DNA from: Pseudobdellovibrionaceae bacterium
GTDB lineage: Bacteria; Bdellovibrionota; Bdellovibrionia; Bdellovibrionales; Bdellovibrionaceae
Reading direction: 5' to 3'
DNA: 64,000 nt
Assembly: GCA_021731025.1 (NCBI GenBank)
Contig: JAKFYD010000024.1
Span: 1 to 64,000, forward strand
Part shown: in pieces, positions 6,473 through 41,247 of the stretch
How the letters are laid out: each line of letters begins with the position of its first letter
How positions within the stretch are numbered: the stretch's first letter is position 1
Program-made: the position numbers and the translations under genes
Notes under the pieces: model-generated
Told to the model about the DNA's origin: nothing
The model's input: only the letters and a program-made list of their open reading frames with translations
The model's database searches: none

Positions 6473-7240
6473 ATGAAGGCAGTTATATTGGCTGGTGGCT
6501 TAGGTACGCGTCTGAGCGAAGAAACCTCTTTGCGACCAAAACCTATGGTTGAAATTGGTGGTAAGCCCATTTTGTGGCACATCATGAAGATCTTCTCCAG
6601 CTATGGAATTAATGATTTTATCATCTGCTGTGGGTATAAGGGCTACATAATTAAGGAATACTTTTCGAATTACTCGCTTCATAATTCAGATATCACAATC
6701 GATCTTGCCGAAAATAAAATCCTTTTCCATCAGAAACAAGTTGAACCATGGAAAGTCACCTTAGTAGATACTGGCGAAAACACGCAAACTGGCGGTCGAT
6801 TGAAGAGAGTTGCGAACTACATCGGTAACGAAGACTTTTGTTTTACTTATGGAGATGGAGTTGCCGATGTTAATATCAAGCAACTGATCGAGTTTCACAA
6901 AAAAGAGGGTACATTAGCCACAGTAACAGCCACCCAATCCCCAGGGCGCTTTGGCGCTTTAAATCTTGATGGAAATCGCGTAAGTAGCTTCAATGAGAAA
7001 CCTTTGGGCGATGGCGGATGGATTAATGGCGGTTTTTTCGTTTTGTCACCGCTTGTTCTCAAATATATTGATGGAGACGCTACACTCTGGGAAAGAGAAC
7101 CCCTTGAAAATTTAGCTCGAGAAAAAAAATTATCTGCTTTTTATCATGAGGGATTCTGGCAACCGATGGACACTTTACGCGATAAAATGAAGCTCGATTC
7201 CCTCTGGCAAAATGGCCAAGCACCATGGAAGATATGGTAA
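6473..7240 (+). CDS. rfbF: Glucose-1-phosphate cytidylyltransferase
   Basis: A 255-residue enzyme converting glucose 1-phosphate and CTP to CDP-glucose. The N-terminal nucleotidyltransferase signature [18 protein letters not shown] (about residues 8-25) is followed by [25 protein letters not shown] with the metal-binding Asp, and [15 protein letters not shown], all characteristic of RfbF. Length matches the family. It is first in a run of five genes and works with RfbG at 10457-11632. The intergenic gap upstream (6355-6472) must carry the promoter. Confidence 0.93.
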
Positions 7241-7254
7241 ATAAAGGAAAATAT

Positions 7255-8508
7255 ATGTCTCAAGAGGTTAAAGAAATCACATCTTGTGAAGTCTGTGAAA
7301 ATCAAAAATTAACTCCAGTTCTTAATTTGGGATTACATCCTTTGTGTGATGATCTAGTTCCCATCAATAACAATCGAATTTGCCATGAGTATCCTATCGA
7401 AATTTTACTTTGTGAAAACTGCTGCACAGCTCATCAGCGCTTTCAGGTTCCAAAACGTGAATTGTTCCCTTCAACTTATCATTACCGTGCTCGATTCACT
7501 GCGGATGTACTAAATGGAATGTCAAATCTTGTCGACTCCTGTGAAAATCGCTTCGGATCAATTCGTGATAAAAAAGTTCTCGATATTGGTTGTAATGATG
7601 GTAGCTTGCTGAATTTTTTCAAAGCTAAAGGCGCCGTCACTTTTGGTATCGAACCTACTGGCGCAGCTTCAGATGCACAAAAAAGCCATTCTGTAATTAA
7701 TGATTTTTTATCCGAAAGCATTTCTACCCGATTTGTTAAAGCGAATGGCCCGCCTGATATTATCACTTTTACGAATGTGTTTGCCCACATCGAGAACCTA
7801 AAGGAAGTTCTTCAATCTTTAAAGATTTTGTTGAACCCTAAAACAGTGATCATTATTGAAAATCACTATCTCGGCTCGGTACTTGATACCAATCAGTTTG
7901 ATACATTTTATCACGAACATCCCCGCACCTACAGCTATAAATCTTTTGTTTATATGGCAGAATCTTTAGGATTGAACTTACTAGACGTTGAATTCCCTTC
8001 TCGATATGGTGGCAATATTCGTGTCACCATGGGGTCATCAAAGATCCATGGCCCTACACAAAATCCGGCAAGTCTTCAAAACATAACAGAACGCGAGTCA
8101 CGTATCTTTAAAGACTTTCAGCGTATGAGCCTGATGTTGAATCATTGGAGAGAATCTAAACACAAAGAGATTCAAAATCTTTTTAAAAAAACTGGTAAAC
8201 TCAGAGCAAAGGCTTTCCCTGGACGAGCTGCTATACTTATAAAATTGTTAAATTTAAATGAATCAGTTATTTCAGCAGTCTATGAAAAACCTGGATCCCT
8301 TAAAGTAGGCCATTATGTTCCAGGGACTCGTATTCCTATTCATTCAGACGAACAATTCTTCTCAGAGGACGATAAGAGCAAACCATTTTTAAATTTAGCT
8401 TGGCACATACCCACAGAAATACGTAAATACTTGTCTGAGCATGGGCAACAGGGACAGGTCATCGACATCGTTAGCAATGATGACTTCATGGGTGCTAACA
8501 ATCAGTGA
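7255..8508 (+). CDS. NDP-hexose C-methyltransferase (Zn-binding N-terminal domain, Methyltransf_13/14 type)
   Basis: The N-terminus carries a Cys cluster, CEVCENQ then CENCCTAHQ (about residues 9-60), that binds structural zinc in this family. A SAM motif VLDIGCNDGSLL lies near residue 105, and the C-terminal domain contains YHEHPRTYSYKSF, part of the TylC3/NovU-type C-methyltransferase region. These enzymes add a branch methyl to NDP-4-keto-6-deoxy sugars. The start is the ATG at 7255, which has AAAGGAAA just upstream; an in-frame ATG at 7225 would overlap rfbF. Its location between RfbF and RfbG makes CDP-4-keto-6-deoxyglucose or a derivative the likely substrate. Confidence 0.85.
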   Translation: MSQEVKEITSCEVCENQKLTPVLNLGLHPLCDDLVPINNNRICHEYPIEILLCENCCTAHQRFQVPKRELFPSTYHYRARFTADVLNGMSNLVDSCENRFGSIRDKKVLDIGCNDGSLLNFFKAKGAVTFGIEPTGAASDAQKSHSVINDFLSESISTRFVKANGPPDIITFTNVFAHIENLKEVLQSLKILLNPKTVIIIENHYLGSVLDTNQFDTFYHEHPRTYSYKSFVYMAESLGLNLLDVEFPSRYGGNIRVTMGSSKIHGPTQNPASLQNITERESRIFKDFQRMSLMLNHWRESKHKEIQNLFKKTGKLRAKAFPGRAAILIKLLNLNESVISAVYEKPGSLKVGHYVPGTRIPIHSDEQFFSEDDKSKPFLNLAWHIPTEIRKYLSEHGQQGQVIDIVSNDDFMGANNQ

Positions 8509-9452
8509 TTTGCATTTTAGGAACTGGTTTTGGCTTATACGGATATTTACCAGCCTTAGTCCAAGGGTGTTCACAGAAGGTAGTGCTGCCAGAACGTTCA
8601 AGAAAAAAGCTTTTAAGTCGACCAGAACTTAAATTATTACTTCCACATATTCACTTTGCTCCCACTGAACTTGAGGCATTAGAACTTGCTGACGGCGCTG
8701 TCCTGGCGCTATCCCCTGAAGATCAATTGACATATCTGAAAAAAATTCTACCATTAAAACAAATCAAACTTCTATTTTTAGAAAAGCCCTTAAGCAACAC
8801 GCCTGAAAGCTCTCAAAATATACTTAATGAAATCATCCAGTCTGGAAAAGAATTTCGAATTGGATATCTTTTTCGACAAACAACATGGGCCAGGGAATTT
8901 GTTGAAAAATTCTATCGGCTCAACGAAAGCTCTACCCTGCGATTTAACTGGTTTTTTCAAGCTCATCACTTTAAAAATAATTTACATAATTGGAAACGCT
9001 CTCACCATTTCGGTGGTGGGGTCATTCGTTTTTACGGGATTCACCTGATCGCTTTTTTGGCCGAGTTAGGATATGGACAAGTTGCAAGTTCAAAAACTTA
9101 TGGCTTTAATAAAGATGAAATTGAAAGATGGCATGCCTGTCTATCGGGACCAAAACTTCCTGATATTGAAATTTACATTGATAGCCGTTCACCAAAAACG
9201 CAATTTTCAATCGATCAAAAAGCTGACACACACCAACACTACCAAAACTTCATTATTCAAAAAGACCCCTTGGATGTTCCTAAAATCGAAGACAATGATC
9301 TCTCTATGCCCGTTTTCGACCGTCGAGTGACTTACCTTGTAAAACACTGTCTATTGCCGCTGGATAAACAGAAGGATTTTACTCAAATATATACAGATAC
9401 GAATACCCTTTGGGCTCTGATCGAACAGAAAGATGAGTTTGTAAAAATATAA
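8505..9452 (+). CDS. Gfo/Idh/MocA-family oxidoreductase
   Basis: A 315-residue protein with an N-terminal dinucleotide-binding strand and GTGFGLYGYLPAL (residues 6-18), followed by FLEKPLS, the family EKP motif. A later HFGGGVIRFYGIHLIAF segment contains a conserved-looking His. It starts at GTG 8505, overlapping the methyltransferase stop by 4 bases, so it is coupled to it. The likely role is NAD(P)-dependent reduction or oxidation of the CDP-keto-sugar after C-methylation. The sequence is divergent, so the precise step is inference. Confidence 0.75.
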   Translation: MICILGTGFGLYGYLPALVQGCSQKVVLPERSRKKLLSRPELKLLLPHIHFAPTELEALELADGAVLALSPEDQLTYLKKILPLKQIKLLFLEKPLSNTPESSQNILNEIIQSGKEFRIGYLFRQTTWAREFVEKFYRLNESSTLRFNWFFQAHHFKNNLHNWKRSHHFGGGVIRFYGIHLIAFLAELGYGQVASSKTYGFNKDEIERWHACLSGPKLPDIEIYIDSRSPKTQFSIDQKADTHQHYQNFIIQKDPLDVPKIEDNDLSMPVFDRRVTYLVKHCLLPLDKQKDFTQIYTDTNTLWALIEQKDEFVKI

Positions 9453-9540
9453 TGAATACAAACGAAATGGACTACTTGTTCTAGCTTATTCCGAAGGTTA
9501 AAAGAGTTGATTCGTATCTATAAAAATGTAATATCCACAA

Positions 9541-10485
9541 ATGGCTAAAAAACTAATTAGCATTATAACCCCCTGCTACAATGAACAAGCAAGTGTCGCA
9601 GAATGCTATGAGACGATTAAAAAGGTCATTGAAACTGAACTAAGTCATTATACCTATGAGCATATTTTTTGCGACAATTGCTCAACTGATAATACCGTAA
9701 AAGTACTTAAAGAAATTGCTGCAAAAGACCCCCGAGTAAAAATCATAGTTAATTCTCGAAACTTTGGAATTTTAAAAAATACCTATAATGGGGTTCTGAA
9801 TGCTTCAGGCGACGCTACTATTTTATTTATGCCTGTAGATCTTCAAGATCCTCCAGAACTTATTCCTACTTTCATCAAACATTGGGAAGAAGGTTATGAA
9901 ATTGTCTATGGGATTCGTGGAAAGCGGGAAGAAAATTTTTTCATGGCTATGGCTCGTAAAGCCTACTATCGCCTGTTAAGCGCATTAACCTATGTTGATT
10001 ACCCTCCAGATGTTGGTGACTATCAGCTTGTGGATCGTAAAGTTCTCGATAGCATGAAACGCATTGACGATGCTCAACCCTTTATGCGCCTGATGACCTT
10101 TGATTGCGGTTTTAAGTCTATTGGAGTTCGCTACACATGGAGAGCTCGAAAAGTTGGAAAATCTGCAAACCGAATACTTCATCTTTTTGACCAAGGATTA
10201 AATGGGATTATTGGATTTAGCGGAGCACCTGTACGCTTAGCCTTAGTTCTTGGGCTTTTCACCTCCATCGCCAGCATCATTTATGCAATCAGTGTTCTTT
10301 TTCTTACTCTGAGTGGTCGGGTTAATTCTCAAGCAGGGACACCTACAATCATCATTGCTTTATTTTTCTTTGGTGGTGTTCAAATGTTTTTCTTGGGAGT
10401 TCTTGGAGAATATATTTTAGCAATATACAACCAAGTCAGACGAAAACCTCTTGTGATTGAACGTGAGCGAATTAACTTTGAGTAA
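9541..10485 (+). CDS. GT2 glycosyltransferase, polyprenyl-phosphate sugar synthase type
   Basis: A 314-residue protein. The catalytic GT2 domain begins ISIITPCYNEQASV, continues with DNCSTDNTV, and has MPVDLQDPPELIP, a DPM/GtrB/ArnC-like acidic motif, near residue 100. Two C-terminal membrane segments (about 230-295) and a tail like YNQVRRKPLVIER complete the architecture. Such enzymes load a sugar onto a lipid phosphate for use by GT-C transferases on the periplasmic side; several candidate GT-C proteins follow. An 88-base gap precedes it with no clear ribosome binding site. It overlaps rfbG by 29 bases. Confidence 0.85.
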   Translation: MAKKLISIITPCYNEQASVAECYETIKKVIETELSHYTYEHIFCDNCSTDNTVKVLKEIAAKDPRVKIIVNSRNFGILKNTYNGVLNASGDATILFMPVDLQDPPELIPTFIKHWEEGYEIVYGIRGKREENFFMAMARKAYYRLLSALTYVDYPPDVGDYQLVDRKVLDSMKRIDDAQPFMRLMTFDCGFKSIGVRYTWRARKVGKSANRILHLFDQGLNGIIGFSGAPVRLALVLGLFTSIASIIYAISVLFLTLSGRVNSQAGTPTIIIALFFFGGVQMFFLGVLGEYILAIYNQVRRKPLVIERERINFE

Positions 10486-11632
10486 ACCCACAAGCTCTTC
10501 TCTGCAAAATTCAGTTGGATTGTTTGGAAATACTTATTTTGGAAAAAAAGTTCTCGTAACTGGTCACACCGGATTCAAAGGTTCATGGCTTTCATTTTGG
10601 CTGAATCGTCTCGGAGCAAAAGTCTGGGGATATTCTTTAAATCCGCAATCAAAACCAAATCATTGGGACATCCTAAAAAATAGCTTCAATGATTCCATTT
10701 TGGAAAAAGATGGCGATATTCGCGGAGACATTCGCAATCTTCCACATCTGCAAAAAGTTTTTTCCGAGGTTAAACCTGATATTGTTTTTCATCTGGCGGC
10801 ACAAGCTCTTGTCTTACCTGCCTACGAAGATCCAATAGAAACTTATTCCTCGAATTTAATGGGAACATTAAATATTTATGAAGTCGCTCGGAAATCTGAT
10901 TCTTGCAAAGCCATAGTCAGCATTACCTCAGATAAGGTTTATCAGAATGATGAACTCAATAAGGCTTTTACCGAAAAAGACACCTTGGGCGGCTATGACC
11001 CCTATAGTTCTTCAAAAGCATGCGTAGAAATCATGTCAACTTCCTATCGCAATTCTTTCCTTAATATAGAACAGTATAAGTTAAAACATAACATACTGTT
11101 AGCAACGGCTAGAGCAGGAAATGTCATTGGCGGTGGCGATTGGGCGGCCCAGCGACTCATTCCTGACATCATTCGAGCAACAACAAATTCTGAAAAAGTT
11201 TCGCTAAGAAGTCCAAGTTCAACTCGACCTTGGCAACATGTTCTGGATCCAATTTCTGGCTATCTTCAATTAGGCCAAAAACTTTTATCAGAGCAATCTG
11301 AATATTCAGGCAGTTGGAATTTTGGGCCCAAAGAATACAACTGGTCAGTTCTCGATGTCATAAAGTTACTTAAACTCGGTTGGCCTAAAATTGAATATTC
11401 TACCGAAGTTAATCCAAAACTTTTTCACGAGGCCAAAACTCTATCTCTGAATTGTGAAAAAGCGCATAGCTTGCTCGGATGGAAGCCAATTTGGAATACC
11501 AAGTATTCAATAGAAAAAACAATCGCGTGGTACAGTGATTTTTATTCAGAGAAAAAAGTTAATACTGAAAAAGACCTACAACAATTTATACTTGATGCTC
11601 AAGAACAAAGAGTTGAATGGGCAGTAACTTAA
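10457..11632 (+). CDS. rfbG: CDP-glucose 4,6-dehydratase
   Basis: An extended SDR of about 391 residues making CDP-4-keto-6-deoxyglucose. TGHTGFKGSWLSFWL is the RfbG form of the glycine-rich NAD motif; SITSDKVYQN supplies the Thr/Ser-Asp region and YDPYSSSKA the catalytic Tyr/Lys. NVIGGGDWA and RPWQHVLDP also fit the family. The coordinate given uses TTG at 10457; GTG 10463 or TTG 10478 are alternatives, since family members begin about 10 residues before KKVLVTGHTG. The stop shares the palindrome TTAA with the stop of the opposing membrane gene. Confidence 0.93.
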   Translation: MNVSELTLSKPTSSSLQNSVGLFGNTYFGKKVLVTGHTGFKGSWLSFWLNRLGAKVWGYSLNPQSKPNHWDILKNSFNDSILEKDGDIRGDIRNLPHLQKVFSEVKPDIVFHLAAQALVLPAYEDPIETYSSNLMGTLNIYEVARKSDSCKAIVSITSDKVYQNDELNKAFTEKDTLGGYDPYSSSKACVEIMSTSYRNSFLNIEQYKLKHNILLATARAGNVIGGGDWAAQRLIPDIIRATTNSEKVSLRSPSSTRPWQHVLDPISGYLQLGQKLLSEQSEYSGSWNFGPKEYNWSVLDVIKLLKLGWPKIEYSTEVNPKLFHEAKTLSLNCEKAHSLLGWKPIWNTKYSIEKTIAWYSDFYSEKKVNTEKDLQQFILDAQEQRVEWAVT

Positions 11633-33193: not shown

Positions 33194-34210
33194 ATGATGA
33201 TTATCGTAAAAGCACCTTTACGCATCTCTATTGGTGGCGGCGGAACAGATCTTCCTTCTTACTACAAGCATTTCGAGTCCACCTTCATCAGCGCAGCCAT
33301 CAACAAATACATCTACATTTCAGTCCACCCCATCTTCATCGAAGATATCATTTTAAAATATTCGGAAATGGAAAAAGTAAAATCGGTGGATCAAATTAAA
33401 CATCCCATCGTGCGCGAAGCTTTAAAGTTAACAGGTATTAACTCGGCCCTTGAAATTTCGTCATTTGCTGACATTCCATCAGGAACAGGATTAGGTTCAT
33501 CAGGTACTTTCACCGTGGCTTTATTGAAAGCCCTTTACACTCTAAAAAACATTAATCACAACAACATGACTTTGGCTGAAGATGCCTGTCGCATTGAAAT
33601 TGAAAAACTAGGTGCGCCCATTGGAAAACAGGATCAGTACATTTCTTCTGTCGGTGGCTTGACCCGTTTTCATATCGACAAAAAAGGGATTGTGACTTCC
33701 CGACCGCTTGAAATGGATCAGCATTCTCGCACGGATCTGGAAGAACATTTGCTTTTATTTTTCACCGGTTACTCTCGATCAGCTAATGAACTTCTGCGCG
33801 AACAAGATAACAAAACTAAAGAAGCCCAAGGCCCGACTTCGGCTTCATCAGCTGCGCCAAGCAACGAAATGATTGAAAACTTACATTTCACCAAAGAGCT
33901 TGGAACAAAAATTGGTTACGCTTTGGAAAAAGGAAATCTTACAGAGTTCGGTCAGTTAATGAACACTCACTGGGAATTTAAAAAGAAACGTTCAAAAAGT
34001 ATGTCTACAGGTCGCATTGACGAATGGTACAGTCTAGCGATGAAAAACGGTGCCCTCGGTGGAAAATTAATTGGCGCTGGTGGTGGTGGTTTCTTGATGT
34101 TCTTAGCTGATGATAAACGTCGACTTAGAAAAACCATGCGCGAAGCTGGCTTGCAAGACGTTCCTTTCCGCTTTGATACTTTGGGAGCACAGGTGGTTCT
34201 TCATGACTAA
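33194..34210 (+). CDS. hddA: GHMP-family sugar kinase (HddA-like)
   Basis: A 338-residue kinase. APLRISIGGGGTDLPSYY at the N-terminus and PSGTGLGSSGTFTVALL, the GHMP phosphate-binding loop, match HddA-type D-glycero-D-manno-heptose-7-phosphate kinases and related fucose/galactose kinases. LIGAGGGGFLMFLAD is the conserved GHMP C-terminal motif. It phosphorylates C1 of a sugar phosphate before nucleotidyl transfer. First gene of the nine-gene operon; AGGGG lies at normal spacing before ATG 33194. The exact sugar is inferred from the neighbouring SIS isomerase and transaldolase. Confidence 0.82.
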   Translation: MMIIVKAPLRISIGGGGTDLPSYYKHFESTFISAAINKYIYISVHPIFIEDIILKYSEMEKVKSVDQIKHPIVREALKLTGINSALEISSFADIPSGTGLGSSGTFTVALLKALYTLKNINHNNMTLAEDACRIEIEKLGAPIGKQDQYISSVGGLTRFHIDKKGIVTSRPLEMDQHSRTDLEEHLLLFFTGYSRSANELLREQDNKTKEAQGPTSASSAAPSNEMIENLHFTKELGTKIGYALEKGNLTEFGQLMNTHWEFKKKRSKSMSTGRIDEWYSLAMKNGALGGKLIGAGGGGFLMFLADDKRRLRKTMREAGLQDVPFRFDTLGAQVVLHD

Positions 34211-35525
34211 ACAAATCGCTGTTATCGGAGATTGGCATTTAGCTTTTGTTACGGCATCGGTGTTGGCCGATGTGGGCCACAAGGTCAATTTCGTCAAACC
34301 ACTGAATTTAAATGCAACAGAATGGACGAAGTTCCCTGACATTCCTGTTATGGAACCCGGCCTGCAAGAGATGATTTCTAAAAACACCTCGGCGGGTCGA
34401 TTGGATTATAAAAATGGAGTCTCCGCCGATCTGACGGCCGATTACATTTGGCTTGCGGTTGATACTCCTGTGAATGAAAATGATGAGCCTCAGCTAGAAC
34501 CTCTTTTAGTCATTGCCGATCAAATTGCTTTATTGAAGAAAAAACCAAAAGCTTTGATAGTGAGTTCACAAATTCCTATGGGCTTTTGTGCTGAATTGGA
34601 AAAACGCACGGGACTTCCTGTCGCTTATATTCCTGAAAATCTGCGCTTAGGAAAAGGCATTGAAACTTTTTATCAAGCTGATCGAACCGTCATTGGTTGC
34701 AACAGCATGGCCGTTGCCGAAGATATTAAATCTTTGCTGTCTGGATTCAAAACTGAATTTCTCCTTTGCAATGCCATCACTTCCGAAATGGTCAAGCATG
34801 CGAACAATGCATTCCTTGCCATGAGCATTAGCTTTTCTAACGAGCTCGCTCGATTGGGTGAAAAGTTCAATGTCGATAGCGTTCTAGTCGGTAAAGCATT
34901 AAAGATGGACAAACGTATTGGCAAAGCAGCTTACGTTATTCCCGGTTTAGGTTTTGCGGGCGGGACATTGCCACGTGACCTTCGTGTTCTTCAAAAATTG
35001 GGTAAAGAACAAAATATTCCTATGGATATTATCGACTCTGTTTTACGGGTGAATGAAAACACCACTAAAGCGATTTCGGAAATTGTTCTAACTCATATTT
35101 CAAAAAATAATTTACCTAAATCAGTATTGATTTTAGGTTACACTTACAAACCAGACACAGACACATTACGCCGATCGCTTTCTTTAGATCTTGCCGAAGA
35201 ACTTGCTGACCATGGAATGAACGTCTCTGGTTATGATCCTGTAATGAATGGAAAAGACCTTTCAGCACTTAATGGAAAAATTAAACATTTTGATTCCTTA
35301 GATACTGTTCCCGCAGAAACTTCTGTTGTTTTGTTGATGACTTCTCGACCTGCATTTCAAGAATTGGATTGGAAAAAAATCACGGCAAAATCCAAATCCC
35401 CGGAAAAGATTCTTGTTCTCGACACTCAGAATTTCTTAAATGCGGCGGCACCTTTAAAATCGGGCTGCACTTTTAAGTCACTGTGGTCTCCGGCTAAAAC
35501 TTCTGCGGGAGAAGCTCATGCTTAA
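34203..35525 (+). CDS. UDP-glucose/mannose dehydrogenase-family protein lacking the catalytic Cys
   Basis: A 440-residue protein of UGD fold: N-terminal Rossmann region, EMVKHANNAFLAMSISF central helix, and a C-terminal NDP-binding domain with LILGYTYKPDTDTLRRS. The catalytic Lys198 and Asn202 of SEMVKHANN are present, and the loop GLGFAGGTLPRDL keeps its Asp259. In that loop Thr255 (ACA at 34965) replaces the invariant Cys that forms the thioester intermediate. The N-terminal loop GDWHLAF also departs from the usual GxGxxG. It probably cannot perform the complete four-electron oxidation to a uronic acid. ATG 34203 overlaps the kinase stop by 8 bases. Confidence 0.8.
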   Translation: MTKQIAVIGDWHLAFVTASVLADVGHKVNFVKPLNLNATEWTKFPDIPVMEPGLQEMISKNTSAGRLDYKNGVSADLTADYIWLAVDTPVNENDEPQLEPLLVIADQIALLKKKPKALIVSSQIPMGFCAELEKRTGLPVAYIPENLRLGKGIETFYQADRTVIGCNSMAVAEDIKSLLSGFKTEFLLCNAITSEMVKHANNAFLAMSISFSNELARLGEKFNVDSVLVGKALKMDKRIGKAAYVIPGLGFAGGTLPRDLRVLQKLGKEQNIPMDIIDSVLRVNENTTKAISEIVLTHISKNNLPKSVLILGYTYKPDTDTLRRSLSLDLAEELADHGMNVSGYDPVMNGKDLSALNGKIKHFDSLDTVPAETSVVLLMTSRPAFQELDWKKITAKSKSPEKILVLDTQNFLNAAAPLKSGCTFKSLWSPAKTSAGEAHA

Positions 35526-36366
35526 AAATAGAGTGATCGCCATCACCGGCGCTGGTCGAGGCATCGGTAAGTCTTTAGCTGAAGCCTGCAAAAAAGAAGG
35601 CTACAAAGTAGCCATTTGCGCTCGTTCGCAAAAAGAACTTGATGAAACTTTAGCTGAACTTAAAAAAATCAACGAGCTTCCTTGTTTAGCTTTCAAGTGC
35701 GACGTCACCAGTGAAAGCGAAACCAAAGCGTTCTTTGAAAAAGTGCAGAAAGATCTTGGTCCACTTTACGGGCTGATCTGCGCCGCTGGTGTTTATGGAC
35801 ATATCGGCCCTTTCCTTGAAAGCACTTTTGAAGAATGGGAAAAGGCCCTCGATATTAATTTGAAAGGAACTGCTCTCTCCGTTCACACCGCAGCTCCTTA
35901 TTTTGATAAAAGCGCTTCTGGAAGAGTGATTCTATTTTCAGGTGGAGGCCAAGGCCCACTTCCAAACTTTTCGGCTTATGCGATCAGCAAAGGTGGAGTT
36001 TGGCGCATGACTGAAACTTTTGGAGCTGAGCTTGCTCAAAGAAATATTTTCTTGAATTCGATCGCCCCTGGTGCCGTAAACACAAAATTGTTGGATGAAT
36101 TGCTGGAAGCTGGTCCCGATCGCGTTGGAAAAGAATTTTACGAAAAATCTTTGGCTCAACGAGAACAAGGCGGAACTTCTCCTGCGAAATCGGCAGAGCT
36201 TGCGCTGTATTTGCTCTCTGAAAAATCAACCGGGCTTTACGGAAAAACTCTTTCTGCAGTTTGGGATCCTTACAAAGATTTCACCAATCTGGAAAAAATG
36301 AGTCAAAGCGATATCTATCAAGTGCGAAGAGTTGTGGACAATCAAGGCAACACTCGCAGCAAATAG
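35518..36366 (+). CDS. Classical short-chain dehydrogenase/reductase
   Basis: A 282-residue SDR with TGAGRGIG (residues 10-17), CAAG at 88-91, catalytic Ser141 in LFSGGG, and Tyr154/Lys158 in YAISK, so all catalytic positions are present. It overlaps the UGD-like gene by 8 bases and lies 12 bases before the epimerase. In this operon it is the most likely enzyme for oxidation or reduction of a ring carbon of the activated sugar, perhaps together with the UGD-like protein. Specific substrate not readable. Confidence 0.83.
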   Translation: MLKNRVIAITGAGRGIGKSLAEACKKEGYKVAICARSQKELDETLAELKKINELPCLAFKCDVTSESETKAFFEKVQKDLGPLYGLICAAGVYGHIGPFLESTFEEWEKALDINLKGTALSVHTAAPYFDKSASGRVILFSGGGQGPLPNFSAYAISKGGVWRMTETFGAELAQRNIFLNSIAPGAVNTKLLDELLEAGPDRVGKEFYEKSLAQREQGGTSPAKSAELALYLLSEKSTGLYGKTLSAVWDPYKDFTNLEKMSQSDIYQVRRVVDNQGNTRSK

Positions 36367-36378
36367 TGAGGAATAGTA

Positions 36379-37347
36379 ATGGCTAAATTTTTAGTGACTG
36401 GTGGGGCTGGCTTTATCGGATCCCATTTTTGTGATGCTGCTTTATCGCGAGGTCATCAAGTTCTTGCTTATGATAACTTAGAAACCGGAAATAAAATATT
36501 TCTGACAGACGCGCTTAAAAATTCAAAGTTTCAATTGCTTGAGGGCGACATTCGCGAACTGGAACAACTCTCCAAAGCAGCGCAAGAATTTCGTCCCGAC
36601 TGGGTCATTCACTTTGCGGCGAATGCCGATGTCAGACAAGGTCTGGATCGACCTCGACGGGATTTAGATTACAACACGACGGGAACTTGGAATGTGGCCG
36701 AAGCGGCTCGACGCTCGGGATGCTCTCGTATTCTGTTTAGCTCAACAGGCTCTGTTTATGGCGAGCCGAAAATATTTCCTACCCCCGAAACTTGTCCTTT
36801 CCCCGAGCAAACTTCTTTGTACGGGGCTTCAAAGTGCGCGGGGGAAGCAATTCTTTCGGCTTACTCTCACGGTTACGGAATGAACAACACGGTCTTTCGT
36901 TTTGTTTCCATCCTTGGACCCCGATATTCACATGGACATGTTTTTGATTTCACTCACCGACTGCGACAAGATCCAACTCAATTAAAAATTCTTGGCAACG
37001 GGAAACAATTGAAATCTTATCTGCACGTCTTTGATTTAATGAACGGACTTTGGAAAGTCATCGATGCTGAGCCTAAGGGCTTTCAAGTTTTTAATATTGG
37101 TCACGATGATGCCCTCACCGTCGATCGCAGCGTTTCTTACATCGTGGATGAGTTAAAAATTTCGCCTAAATACAATTACACCGGTGGCGAACGGGGTTGG
37201 ATTGGCGACAGTCCCCGCATCCAATTGGATTGCACCAAATTAAAAACTCTCGGTTGGAAAGCGGAACGCAGTTTAGAACAAGGCGTGCGCGACACCGTGA
37301 AGTACCTTAAGGAAAATTCGTTCTTATTTGAAGGAGTTCCAGTATGA
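36379..37347 (+). CDS. NDP-sugar epimerase/dehydratase (GalE-like extended SDR)
   Basis: A 322-residue protein with TGGAGFIGSHF (residues 7-17), YDNLETGN after the second strand (UDP-glucose-4-epimerase type), STGSVYGE, and catalytic Tyr148/Lys152 in LYGASKCAGE. FRFVSILGPRYSHGHVFDF and NGKQLKSYLHVFDL also resemble nucleotide-sugar 4-epimerases. The stop overlaps the next gene by 4 bases. It probably inverts a hydroxyl of the nucleotide-activated sugar produced by this operon. Confidence 0.85.
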   Translation: MAKFLVTGGAGFIGSHFCDAALSRGHQVLAYDNLETGNKIFLTDALKNSKFQLLEGDIRELEQLSKAAQEFRPDWVIHFAANADVRQGLDRPRRDLDYNTTGTWNVAEAARRSGCSRILFSSTGSVYGEPKIFPTPETCPFPEQTSLYGASKCAGEAILSAYSHGYGMNNTVFRFVSILGPRYSHGHVFDFTHRLRQDPTQLKILGNGKQLKSYLHVFDLMNGLWKVIDAEPKGFQVFNIGHDDALTVDRSVSYIVDELKISPKYNYTGGERGWIGDSPRIQLDCTKLKTLGWKAERSLEQGVRDTVKYLKENSFLFEGVPV

Positions 37348-38351
37348 AGTGGGGTTTAATCGGCTGCGGAGTGATCGGCGAACGAAGAGCCGCGGCTCTT
37401 CCCGAGGGAGTAAAACTTGTTAGCTGTTATGATCCTGTTGCGGCTCGCACGGAAAAGATTTCTCAACTGACTGAGGCGCAAATTGCGAAGAATGAAGATG
37501 AAGTTTTTAAGACCGAAGGTCTGACTGCTGTCGTGATTGCGGCGATCAACTCATCTCTTGTTGGTCTTATTCAAAAAGCTGTGGATCGTGGTCTGCATGT
37601 GCTCGTGGAAAAACCAGCGGCTCGCAGCCATTCCGAGCTCTCGACATTGAATCCTAAAAAATCCGTGATTAAAGTGGGTTTCAATCATCGTTTTCATCCC
37701 GCATTTTATGATCTTGTGAATGAAATTAAAAATAATCCCGATGATCCCATTATGTTCATTCGTGCCCAGTATGGAAACGGAGCCCGCGTTGGTTTCGATC
37801 GCGAATGGAGATCCAACGTTGAAATCGCCGGCGGCGGTGAATTGCTGGATCAAGGCGTTCACGTTTTGGATTTAGCTTCTGTTCTTTTGCCCGACATGAA
37901 AGTGATTACGGGTTATTGCAAAACTCATTATTGGGATATGAAAGTGGACGATAACTCCTGGGCCATTCTTGCCGATAAGAGTGGCGCGACTTTCACTTTC
38001 CATGTTTCTTCCAGCGAATGGAAAAATGAATTTCGCTTCGAAGTTTACACTCGAAAAAGAAAGTACCAGTGGTTGGGATTAGGTCGATCTTATGGACCTG
38101 AAAAGTTACACATCTATAAAATGAAACCCGAGATGGGTCCTCCCGATTACGAAGAGCGCAGTTACCCCGGCGACGATCTCAGTTGGAAAAATGAAAACAC
38201 TCAGTTTCAACAGGCTGTTTTGGGAAAAGCTCCCCCTTATGGAGGCTTTCAAGACGCCTTGAAATGCCTGGGCTTCGTTGAAGATATTTATGAAAAGTCG
38301 AAAGCTCTTCAAGGAAACACCAATCATCCTTTATGGTGGAGACAACCTTAA
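37344..38351 (+). CDS. Gfo/Idh/MocA-family oxidoreductase
   Basis: A 335-residue protein: GLIGCGVIGERRA (residues 4-16) for NAD(P) binding, LVEKPAA (residues 88-94), and GGGELLDQGVHVLDLA with a typical catalytic-region His. These enzymes oxidise or reduce ring hydroxyls in NDP-sugars and inositols. It overlaps the epimerase by 4 bases and abuts the nucleotidyltransferase start (TAAGTG). It is distinct from the smaller, more divergent relative at 8505-9452. Confidence 0.85.
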   Translation: MKWGLIGCGVIGERRAAALPEGVKLVSCYDPVAARTEKISQLTEAQIAKNEDEVFKTEGLTAVVIAAINSSLVGLIQKAVDRGLHVLVEKPAARSHSELSTLNPKKSVIKVGFNHRFHPAFYDLVNEIKNNPDDPIMFIRAQYGNGARVGFDREWRSNVEIAGGGELLDQGVHVLDLASVLLPDMKVITGYCKTHYWDMKVDDNSWAILADKSGATFTFHVSSSEWKNEFRFEVYTRKRKYQWLGLGRSYGPEKLHIYKMKPEMGPPDYEERSYPGDDLSWKNENTQFQQAVLGKAPPYGGFQDALKCLGFVEDIYEKSKALQGNTNHPLWWRQP

Positions 38352-39059
38352 GTGCAAACATCGCCCGTCCCACCTATTCTGGTTTTAGCTGGTGGACGAG
38401 CGACTCGCCTTAAGGAACTTTCGAAAGATCTTCCCAAATATTTAATGCCGGTGGATTCGCAGCAGAATTTTGCTGATGTTCATTTAAAATGGCTGAAGTC
38501 TTTAGGATTTAACAAAGTCTTCCTGAGTATCGGTCACCTCGGAGAACAAATTCGGGATCACTGTGAAGACGGCTCACGTTGGGATTTAAATATTTATTAT
38601 CTCGAAGATGGGCCACAGCTCGTAGGCACCGGAGGAGCTGTTAGAAATTCCCTGGCCTTAGATTATAGCGAACTTGCTGTTACCTATGGTGACACATTGC
38701 TTAATCTTCAGCTGGATCAGCTTCTTGAAAATTTTCACCAGCAAAAAGTCCAAGGTCTTATGACCATTTATAAAAACGAAGTCCCTGGTCATGTTTGCAA
38801 TATTCATTGGGAATCCCCTTACGTCATCTACGATAAAATAAATCCTAAGCCTCAGTGGCAATATATTGATTACGGCTTTATGATTCTTAAACGCTCGCTG
38901 ATCGAGTCTTTTCCGAAAGAAAGCCCTCTGGACCTTGCTCTGCCTTTATCCCTAGCTTCTTATAAGAAACAAATCGCCGGTTACCCTGTGAAAGAACGTT
39001 TTTGGGAGATTGGCTCTCCCGAAGCCTTGGCCGAGTTTCAAGCCAAATTTCATTCATAA
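38352..39059 (+). CDS. Sugar-1-phosphate nucleotidyltransferase (HddC/MurNAc-P-transferase-like)
   Basis: A 235-residue enzyme with LVLAGGRATRLKELSKDLPK (the GGxxTR...PK signature), VGTGGAVRNSL and AVTYGDTLLNL carrying the metal-binding Asp. Length and motifs match short nucleotidyltransferases such as HddC, which activates D-glycero-alpha-D-manno-heptose 1-phosphate with GTP. The base used cannot be read from sequence. It starts at GTG 38352 immediately after the previous stop. With the kinase at 33194 it gives sugar-7-P to sugar-1-P to NDP-sugar logic. Confidence 0.83.
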   Translation: MQTSPVPPILVLAGGRATRLKELSKDLPKYLMPVDSQQNFADVHLKWLKSLGFNKVFLSIGHLGEQIRDHCEDGSRWDLNIYYLEDGPQLVGTGGAVRNSLALDYSELAVTYGDTLLNLQLDQLLENFHQQKVQGLMTIYKNEVPGHVCNIHWESPYVIYDKINPKPQWQYIDYGFMILKRSLIESFPKESPLDLALPLSLASYKKQIAGYPVKERFWEIGSPEALAEFQAKFHS

Positions 39060-39128
39060 AGCTAGTGCTTTTATAGCTAAAATTTAGTATTCCTAATTCA
39101 TCGCTAAATTCGTCACGAAAGGTAAAAA

Positions 39129-39854
39129 ATGAACACTCCCAGTCCATTTGCAAACAAAGTTAAAATTTACTCTGATGGTGCTGATAAAGCTTCCATGCTA
39201 GAAATGGCAAAAAATCCCCTGATCAAAGGCCTAACTACAAATCCCAGCCTGATGAAAAAAGCTGGCGTCAGTGATTACAAAAGTTTTTGTTTAGATATTT
39301 TAACTCACATCAAAGACAAACCCCTTTCTTTCGAAGTTTTTACAGATGATATCACCGATATGAAACGCCAAGGGAACGAGATCAACACTTGGGGTAAAAA
39401 TGTTTACGTTAAAATTCCAATCACAAACTCTGAAGGACAATCGACAATTCCTTTGATCAAAGAATTGACCAAAGCCGGAGTAAAATTAAATGTAACTGCA
39501 ATCTTAACAATGCAGCAAGTGACTGAAACAGTACTGGCATTGAAAGGTGGAGCTCCTTCCATCGTGTCTGTTTTCGCAGGACGAATCGCTGATACAGGCC
39601 GTGATCCTATGCCTATCATGAGCGCAGCTGCTGCTCTTTGCCGTGGCACTGATCCAAACATTGAATTGCTTTGGGCTTCAAGCCGTGAAGCTTTCAACAT
39701 TGTTCAAGCGGAACAAACAGATTGCCACATCATTACGGCAGCACCTGATTTGATTAAAAAAACTTCCATGTTCAACAAAGATTTAACTCAATTGAGTCTT
39801 GAAACAGTTCGCATGTTTAAAACAGACGCTGAAGCTGCGGGGTACAAATTATGA
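39129..39854 (+). CDS. Transaldolase-family protein
   Basis: A 241-residue TIM-barrel protein. IYSDGAD carries the conserved Asp16, GLTTNPSLM (residues 34-42) is the family signature, and VYVKIPIT holds the Schiff-base Lys95. VSVFAGRIADTGRDP replaces the usual SPFVGRI-type region. Size fits the short transaldolase/fructose-6-phosphate aldolase group. A 69-base gap precedes it, with AAAGGT before ATG 39129, and it overlaps the SIS gene by 4 bases. Such a gene inside a glycan operon suggests dedicated supply of a ketose phosphate, for example sedoheptulose 7-phosphate, to the SIS isomerase. Confidence 0.87.
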   Translation: MNTPSPFANKVKIYSDGADKASMLEMAKNPLIKGLTTNPSLMKKAGVSDYKSFCLDILTHIKDKPLSFEVFTDDITDMKRQGNEINTWGKNVYVKIPITNSEGQSTIPLIKELTKAGVKLNVTAILTMQQVTETVLALKGGAPSIVSVFAGRIADTGRDPMPIMSAAAALCRGTDPNIELLWASSREAFNIVQAEQTDCHIITAAPDLIKKTSMFNKDLTQLSLETVRMFKTDAEAAGYKL

Positions 39855-40459
39855 TGACCGACAGCTTTTCAAAATCTTTTCTCGATGAAACGATTCAAAT
39901 TCTTCAAGAACTCAATCCTACAGAAATCGATGCTTTAGCAACGTCCTTAGGTAAAGTTCGTGATAATGGCGGTCGATTATTTATTTTGGGTGTTGGCGGA
40001 TCTGCGGGTCACGCTAGCCATGCTGTTAATGACTTCCGTAAAATCTGCGGATTCGAAGCTTACGCTCCAACCGACAATGTTTCTGAACTGACGGCGCGAA
40101 TCAATGACGAAGGATGGGAGAGCTGTTTTTCAGAGTGGCTGAAAGGCTCACGCATTACTGGAAAAGACGCTGTTCTTGTTTTTTCTGTTGGCGGTGGAAA
40201 CCAAGAAAAAAATGTTTCCATGAATTTAGTGCGCGCTCTTGAAGTTGCCAAAGAAGTTGGCGCAACTGTGACTGGCATCGTTGGTAAAGATGGTGGTTTC
40301 ACTAAAAAAACATCTCAAGCTTGCGTGGTCATTCCACCCAAATTTTCCGAGAGAATTACTCCCCATACAGAGGGCCTTGCGGCCGTTGTTTGGCATCTGT
40401 TGGTTTCACACCCTGCTTTGAAAGTGAAACAAACAAAATGGGAAAGCACTAAACCTTGA
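39851..40459 (+). CDS. gmhA: SIS-domain sugar-phosphate isomerase (GmhA-like)
   Basis: A 202-residue SIS protein. LFILGVGGSAGHASHAVNDF is the phosphate-binding GGS region, VFSVGGGN the second SIS loop, and HTEGLAAVVWHLL the C-terminal Glu/His pair corresponding to the catalytic region of phosphoheptose isomerase. GmhA converts sedoheptulose 7-phosphate to D-glycero-D-manno-heptose 7-phosphate. The ATGA overlap with the transaldolase argues that they act in sequence. GmhA identity is probable; other ketose-phosphate substrates are possible. Confidence 0.78.
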   Translation: MMTDSFSKSFLDETIQILQELNPTEIDALATSLGKVRDNGGRLFILGVGGSAGHASHAVNDFRKICGFEAYAPTDNVSELTARINDEGWESCFSEWLKGSRITGKDAVLVFSVGGGNQEKNVSMNLVRALEVAKEVGATVTGIVGKDGGFTKKTSQACVVIPPKFSERITPHTEGLAAVVWHLLVSHPALKVKQTKWESTKP

Positions 40460-41247
40460 TCAGCAAGGTCAGCTTAATTATTCCTATTTTTAATGAAGGT
40501 GATACTGCCCTTGCACTTTTAAAAAGCGTCATGGCACAGCCTTTACCAGGTGATCTTCAAAAAGAGATGATTATCATCGAGTCCAATTCAACGGATGGGA
40601 CTCGTGAACTTGTGCAAAAATTTGTTCAGGAAAATGCTGGAAATTCTCCAGTGAAAATTGAGCTAATTCTTGAAGAAACACCCAGGGGAAAAGGTCATGC
40701 CGTTCGGCAAGGAATACAAAAAGCAACCGGCGACATCATCTTGATTCAAGACGGCGATCTTGAGTACAGTGTTACTGATTACCCACTGCTGCTTCAACCT
40801 CTCATCGATGGCCACGTCGACTTTGTTTTAGGATCACGACATTTATCTGCTGGTGGATGGAAGATCCGTAAGTTTGAGCAAAGCCCGATGACAGCTTTCT
40901 ACATGAATTTAGGTGGAATGTTTTTCCATACTTTGTTCAACATTCTTTACCAAGTTAAACTCACTGACCCTACAACCATGTATAAGGTTTTTCTGAAAAA
41001 ATGCATTGATGGTGTCGCTTTCGAATCAAACCGTTTTGATTTTGACTTTGAATTGGTCGCGAAATTAATTCGTCTGGGTTATATTCCTTTGGAAGTTCCT
41101 ATTTCTTACTCGTCTCGTGGTTTTGAAAAGGGAAAAAAAGTTCGAGCTTTCCGCGATCCTTTTATGTTCCTGTGGGTTATTTTTAAATTTCGAATTAAGC
41201 GAATTCAACGCATTCCTCGAAAAGCAATGACTTACAGTCTAAACTAA
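40456..41247 (+). CDS. GT2 glycosyltransferase (DPM1/polyprenyl-phosphate type, no TM hairpin)
   Basis: A 263-residue GT-A enzyme: SLIIPIFNEGDTALALLKSV, IIESNSTDGT, RGKGHAVRQGI, and ILIQDGDLEYSVTDYP as the DxD-containing motif. DPTTMYKVF and FDFDFELVAKLIRLGY match the dolichyl-phosphate sugar synthase group; it lacks the C-terminal membrane hairpin. It starts at TTG 40456 over the SIS stop. As last gene of the operon it probably transfers the finished sugar, either to a lipid phosphate or to the glycan. Its stop shares CTAA with the opposing mutase stop. Confidence 0.85.
   Translation: MISKVSLIIPIFNEGDTALALLKSVMAQPLPGDLQKEMIIIESNSTDGTRELVQKFVQENAGNSPVKIELILEETPRGKGHAVRQGIQKATGDIILIQDGDLEYSVTDYPLLLQPLIDGHVDFVLGSRHLSAGGWKIRKFEQSPMTAFYMNLGGMFFHTLFNILYQVKLTDPTTMYKVFLKKCIDGVAFESNRFDFDFELVAKLIRLGYIPLEVPISYSSRGFEKGKKVRAFRDPFMFLWVIFKFRIKRIQRIPRKAMTYSLN

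Follow-up and report, generated by a model that had tools for sequence, protein, structure and literature searches.

A UDP-glucose dehydrogenase homologue with threonine in place of the catalytic cysteine, a probable LmbL/CcbL-type enzyme in an octose-like operon of a Bdellovibrionaceae-like genome

Gene organization of the locus

The DNA analysed here, a 64,000-nucleotide stretch of a Bdellovibrionaceae-like genome (the window), carries at 33194-40459 an operon on the forward strand whose neighbouring genes overlap or almost touch. It begins with a GHMP kinase gene (33194-34210) whose product resembles LmbP/CcbP and HddA and is the best window match of CcbP (31%). This gene overlaps by 8 bases the start of the dehydrogenase gene at 34203-35525, which is followed by a short-chain dehydrogenase (SDR; 35518-36366, from Pfam and NCBIfam matches) in the position that the aminotransferase LmbS has in lincosamide clusters. 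Next are an LmbM/CcbM-like NAD-dependent epimerase (36379-37347; 40% identity and 237 bits with CcbM), an LmbZ/CcbZ-like Gfo/Idh/MocA oxidoreductase (37344-38351; the best window match of CcbZ, 27%) and a putative LmbO/CcbO-like sugar-1-phosphate nucleotidyltransferase (38352-39059), matched by CcbO at 24% and 65 bits, a small margin over the 60 bits of a second nucleotidyltransferase at 6473-7240. A small LmbR/CcbR-like transaldolase (TIGR02134; 39129-39854) and an LmbN/GmhA-like SIS-domain isomerase (39851-40459) complete the operon, and each is the only copy found in the window's genome. The final gene of the run encodes a family 2 glycosyltransferase (40456-41247; Pfam), which possibly uses the operon's sugar; a gene of this type also adjoins the cassette in two other loci (L031 and L032).

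Around the operon are an ABC-transporter pair, CDP-glucose-type genes, a GDP-mannose-dehydratase-like gene and many glycosyltransferase-like genes, read from the sequence and partly domain-checked. These polysaccharide-type surroundings suggest that the operon's product probably forms part of a surface polysaccharide. We also note, by eye in the list of open reading frames, a CDP-glucose-pathway-like run at 6473-11632 with cytidylyltransferase-, C-methyltransferase-, oxidoreductase-, glycosyltransferase- and 4,6-dehydratase-like genes, which perhaps makes a branched sugar.

The dehydrogenase and its active site

Translation of 34203-35525 (forward strand) gives a protein of 440 residues with no internal stops, in which all three domains PF03721, PF00984 and PF03720 score above their Pfam cut-offs and the NCBIfam model TIGR03026 reaches 247 bits (cut-off 190). 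The best structural matches of its AlphaFold2 model (mean pLDDT 93.7) are UDP-glucose dehydrogenase (UGDH) structures, and searches of the window's genome found no second UGDH-like gene. The first-pass annotation had read a Thr for the catalytic Cys at 34965-34967, retention of Lys198, Asn202 and Asp259, and an unusual glycine loop, and all three readings hold. The codon at 34965-34967 is ACA and encodes Thr255, which a phmmer alignment places opposite the canonical catalytic Cys of 3gg2 and 4a7p; a script check of the translation finds K198, N202 and D259 kept, as is E145; and the glycine loop is GDWHLAF as described. The only cysteines are residues 129, 166, 189 and 422, all outside the loop, so that substitution by a Cys elsewhere in the loop, which would have undone the observation, is ruled out.

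The window protein shares with canonical UDP-glucose 6-dehydrogenases (PDB 3gg2, 4a7p, 2y0e and 3vtf) the three domains, the fold and the Lys, Asn, Asp and Glu residues, and has in this respect what is expected of a UDP-glucose or GDP-mannose 6-dehydrogenase. The Cys nucleophile of those enzymes is missing, and so is the Thr of their K-S-T-V-P motif, which here is S-S-Q-I-P with Q123 at the Thr position. The canonical G-T-P is D-T-P; the first-pass annotation noted neither of these two changes. The glycine loop has the form G-x-W-H-L. The canonical enzymes also lie in a different gene neighbourhood and on the other side of a 100/100 branch.

Conservation and phylogeny of the Thr form

The nearest relatives, from the same genus or family of genomes and 70, 64 and 63% identical, all have GGTLPRD at the loop. 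Had they all carried Cys the substitution would have been an isolated mutation; this possibility, like a sequencing error, is ruled out by the conservation of Thr across relatives. When GTDB species genomes were scanned with two motifs from outside the loop, [TN][AS]EMVKHA and [VI][AT]VIG[DL]WHL, 27 loci were recovered, and every aligned locus has Thr in the loop and S-Q-x-P or A-Q-x-P at the K-S-T-V-P site. Residues T255, K198, N202, D259, E145, Q123, W11 and H12 are invariant in a 26-row alignment (A2), in which no column is an invariant Cys. Thr and the residues K198, N202, D259 and E145 are likewise kept in L118, L128, L132-L135 and the full-length viral forms.

Thr thus marks a conserved clade. 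It is found in 37/37 full-length relatives in the tree, which come from Bdellovibrionota, Chloroflexota, Patescibacteria, Micrarchaeota, Kiritimatiellota and other groups, a Lawsonia plasmid and viral contigs, and the accompanying signature is GxWH, SQxP or AQxP, PENLRLG, KH and TLxRD. Since different phyla keep both the Thr and these motifs, neither chance nor decay can be their source. A maximum-likelihood tree with the loop masked separates the 37 Thr rows by a single 100/100 branch from 31 Cys rows, the latter all from the UDP-glucose-dehydrogenase-like part of the superfamily. The Thr form is rare and patchily distributed; in the phylum of the window, 7/291 genomes have it. Two genomes of a 396-genome Actinomycetota sample, the starting genome included, have the Thr form among the best matches listed, in a screen with an E-value limit of 1e-108 and the loop read in the best 30 matches, which may miss divergent forms. 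This wide yet patchy spread suggests horizontal transfer. The Thr as a clade hallmark appears to be new, although the enzyme type that LmbL and CcbL represent is already known.

Relationship to the lincosamide octose genes

The operon resembles the genes for the lincomycin octose, a likeness that was the starting point for a comparison with lincosamide clusters. A kinase profile run against 296 genomes from a single large-genome genus led to locus L128, which encodes a HAD phosphatase, a UGDH-like protein, an epimerase, a SIS protein, a Gfo/Idh protein, a class I/II aminotransferase, a PIG-L protein and a GHMP kinase, together with a nucleotidyltransferase, a DegT aminotransferase, a transaldolase, a PmbA/TldD protein, a glycosyltransferase, an MDMPI protein and an AMP ligase. 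Judged by gene content, L128 is a celesticetin-type cluster, since its genes match the ccb set listed in PMC4351081, with a candidate for the salicyl-AMP ligase among them. Looking for a lincosamide-type LmbL in the PDB, in plasmids and in a broad Actinomycetota sample had yielded no lincosamide cluster.

CcbL of L128 has the clade signature and the Thr (GLWHLG, SQVP, VPENLRLG, AELVKHA and GAAFSGSTLQRD); the Thr for Cys and the motifs GLWHLG, SQVP, PENLRLG and KHA are seen directly in CcbL, to which LmbL is 63% identical (PMC4351081). CcbL and the window protein are 28-29% identical, and the latter has the features of the LmbL/CcbL clade, namely the Thr, GxWH, SQxP, PENLRLG and KH, and groups apart from the Cys forms in a tree made without the loop. 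The likeness extends to the neighbouring genes, with homologous kinase, epimerase, Gfo/Idh, nucleotidyltransferase, transaldolase and isomerase genes in both places. The best window matches of CcbL, CcbM, CcbZ, CcbP and CcbO all fall inside the operon, and the window's transaldolase and isomerase match the CcbR and CcbN regions, so that transaldolase, isomerase, kinase, nucleotidyltransferase and homologues of LmbM, LmbL and LmbZ stand together as a lincosamide-type octose set. The first-pass annotation was right to see an otherwise intact pathway here but missed its identity, a match to the lincosamide octose gene set.

There are also differences. Lincosamide clusters have the DegT aminotransferase LmbS/CcbS, which as CcbS has no match among the window's open reading frames, whereas the window operon has the SDR. 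They also carry antibiotic assembly genes, while the operon lacks these and lies in a polysaccharide-type locus. An LmbK-type phosphatase is absent from the operon as well, and a 35% match lies elsewhere in the window's genome. LmbM, LmbL, CcbZ and CcbS jointly convert GDP-octose to GDP-lincosamide (PMC12945683). In the tree CcbL is on a long branch beside an actinobacterial cassette member (L063; support 88/84), and a basal position on the Thr side is also compatible with the AU test (p-AU 0.357). The SDR-type cassette of locus L138, from actinobacterial genome G256, is complete. No other row of the tree lies closer to CcbL than the dehydrogenase of this locus (88/84), which is possibly related to the ancestor from which the lincosamide sugar genes arose.

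Cassettes in other genomes and in viral contigs

Within about 10 kb around 30 Thr-form genes we find a transaldolase at 23/30, a SIS protein at 24/30, a kinase at 27/30, a Gfo/Idh protein at 28/30 and an SDR at 24/30. The control, 20 Cys-form genes from the order to which the window belongs and so taxonomically narrower than the Thr set, gives 0/20 for each of the first four and 1/20 for the SDR (Fisher p 2e-7 to 5e-12, for loci that are non-independent). Many related cassettes include a HAD phosphatase, mostly beside the isomerase or the transaldolase, and only two loci, the ccb cluster and L054, have a DegT match without an SDR match. The openly accessible literature yielded no previous account of such cassettes, a weak indication that they are novel; the widespread variant with an SDR appears to be new.

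Several individual loci are of note. The cassette of L033 (CALQIT020000029.1) is 56-85% identical to that of the window. A full cassette is present in Lawsonia intracellularis plasmid 3 (L118, NC_008014.1:6625-31866), with SIS, HAD, transaldolase, Thr-form dehydrogenase, SDR and Gfo/Idh genes, a kinase annotated as galactokinase, and a nucleotidyltransferase. Much or all of the cassette is also found in the IMG/VR viral contigs L092, L093, L095, L106, L112 and L115, and at least L112, which has genes for a terminase large subunit and a D5-type primase, looks like a genuine phage. Some viral dehydrogenases are short and consist of the N-terminal and central domains only (L098:7998-8738, L106:7848-8672 and L112:6995-7852, and others in L109, L113 and L115); they are without the C-terminal UDP-binding domain and have Thr, Ser or His at the Cys position.

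Proposed reaction and alternatives

In UDP-glucose dehydrogenase the Cys binds the C6 aldehyde as a thiohemiacetal, from which the second hydride is transferred. When a sugar has seven or eight carbons, its C6 carries a secondary alcohol, which a single oxidation turns into a ketone that cannot go on to an acid. We consider it likely that the protein at 34203-35525 is a two-electron C6 oxidoreductase of the LmbL/CcbL type that acts on an NDP-octose and for which the Cys is dispensable. The nucleotide of this substrate would, by analogy, be GDP, and the NDP-octose would be made by four enzymes of the operon (transaldolase, SIS isomerase, kinase and nucleotidyltransferase) together with an unlinked phosphatase. 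The extra carbon on C6 would make the C6 hydroxyl secondary and its oxidation by NAD+ would yield a ketone. Such a ketone cannot proceed through a thiohemiacetal to a thioester and an acid, so the Cys would not be needed; lack of a role for Cys at a secondary C6 alcohol would likewise account for Thr becoming fixed while the other catalytic residues stayed.

A PNAS study of 2020 on LmbM, LmbL, CcbZ and CcbS reportedly describes in its abstract a 6-epimerisation, a 6,8-dehydration, a 4-epimerisation and a 6-transamination, and the 6,8-dehydration presumably belongs to LmbL. By this lincosamide precedent, the ketone would probably lose the beta C8 hydroxyl and receive the hydride back, a net 6,8-dehydration. 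It is speculation that the change of the middle Gly of the glycine loop to Trp reflects an NAD+ that is retained and recycled. The LmbM-like epimerase and the LmbZ-like Gfo/Idh enzyme would alter other centres, the SDR, in place of LmbS, would probably reduce the 6-ketone, and the end product may be a neutral (8-deoxy)octose for a surface polysaccharide.

The first-pass annotation had offered a two-electron reaction, a non-oxidative reaction or a structural or regulatory pseudo-enzyme. The two-electron reaction is the best supported of these, since Thr is a conserved trait of a clade to which CcbL, from the octose pathway of celesticetin, also belongs. The lost nucleophile and altered glycine loop would fit a structural or regulatory pseudo-enzyme. 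That reading is not supported, and we regard it as the least probable: Lys198, Asn202, Asp259 and Glu145 are invariant among the 26 aligned relatives, from bacterial and archaeal phyla alike, and as the sole UGDH-like gene found in its genome it has no active paralogue to regulate. Only marginally better is a four-electron dehydrogenase that makes an NDP-uronic acid with an ester at Thr255 instead of the thioester, or with water in the second step. The fold and remaining catalytic residues are those of UGDH, but a second catalytic residue, the Thr of K-S-T-V-P, has also been lost to Gln, and the Thr form is fixed alongside a set of genes that is not matched in the neighbourhood of enzymes forming uronic acids.

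The closest alternative keeps the enzyme type and changes the substrate to an NDP-heptose, whose 6-keto form the SDR would then reduce, with net C6 epimerisation or a similar result. The SIS isomerase, kinase and nucleotidyltransferase do resemble GmhA, HddA and HddC, and the isomerase, kinase, phosphatase and nucleotidyltransferase classes of the GDP-D-glycero-D-manno-heptose pathway (GmhA, HddA, GmhB and HddC) are common to both routes; yet the scores are far under the NCBIfam equivalog cut-offs (HddA 156 against 600 bits, HddC 61 against 300, GmhA 49 against 209). The heptose pathway is not known to need a dedicated transaldolase, a UGDH-like or a Gfo/Idh enzyme, three types that are found with the cassette again and again, and the joint presence of LmbM-, LmbL- and LmbZ-like genes favours the lincosamide route. 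In the lincomycin route an octulose phosphate is built by a transaldolase, whereas sedoheptulose phosphate is widely available in metabolism. Of 14 cassette genomes, 7 have more than one transaldolase. The argument from a dedicated transaldolase holds only partly, being weaker in the window's genome, where the cassette copy is the sole transaldolase found and may be a housekeeping gene. An LmbL-like dehydration is moreover impossible on a heptose, because its C7 hydroxyl is alpha and not beta to the ketone. We thus clearly favour an octose and consider a heptose unlikely.

Implications

A broader scenario, put forward tentatively and with some doubt, is that a patchy but widespread NDP-(8-deoxy)octose pathway ending in an SDR supplies bacteria, DPANN archaea, Patescibacteria and some phages with a sugar for surface glycans that has yet to be described, with the lincosamide sugar as an aminated offshoot. 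This suggests an origin for the lincosamide sugar pathway, and by its prediction the surface glycans of some phages and of many lineages without cultured members would contain eight-carbon sugars. The C6 two-electron reaction proposed here would also provide a chemical reason for one branch of the UDP-glucose dehydrogenase superfamily doing without its nucleophile. The clade signature would then tell such enzymes from uronic-acid makers, which are named alike in databases; the Lawsonia member of the clade is entered as 'nucleotide sugar dehydrogenase'.
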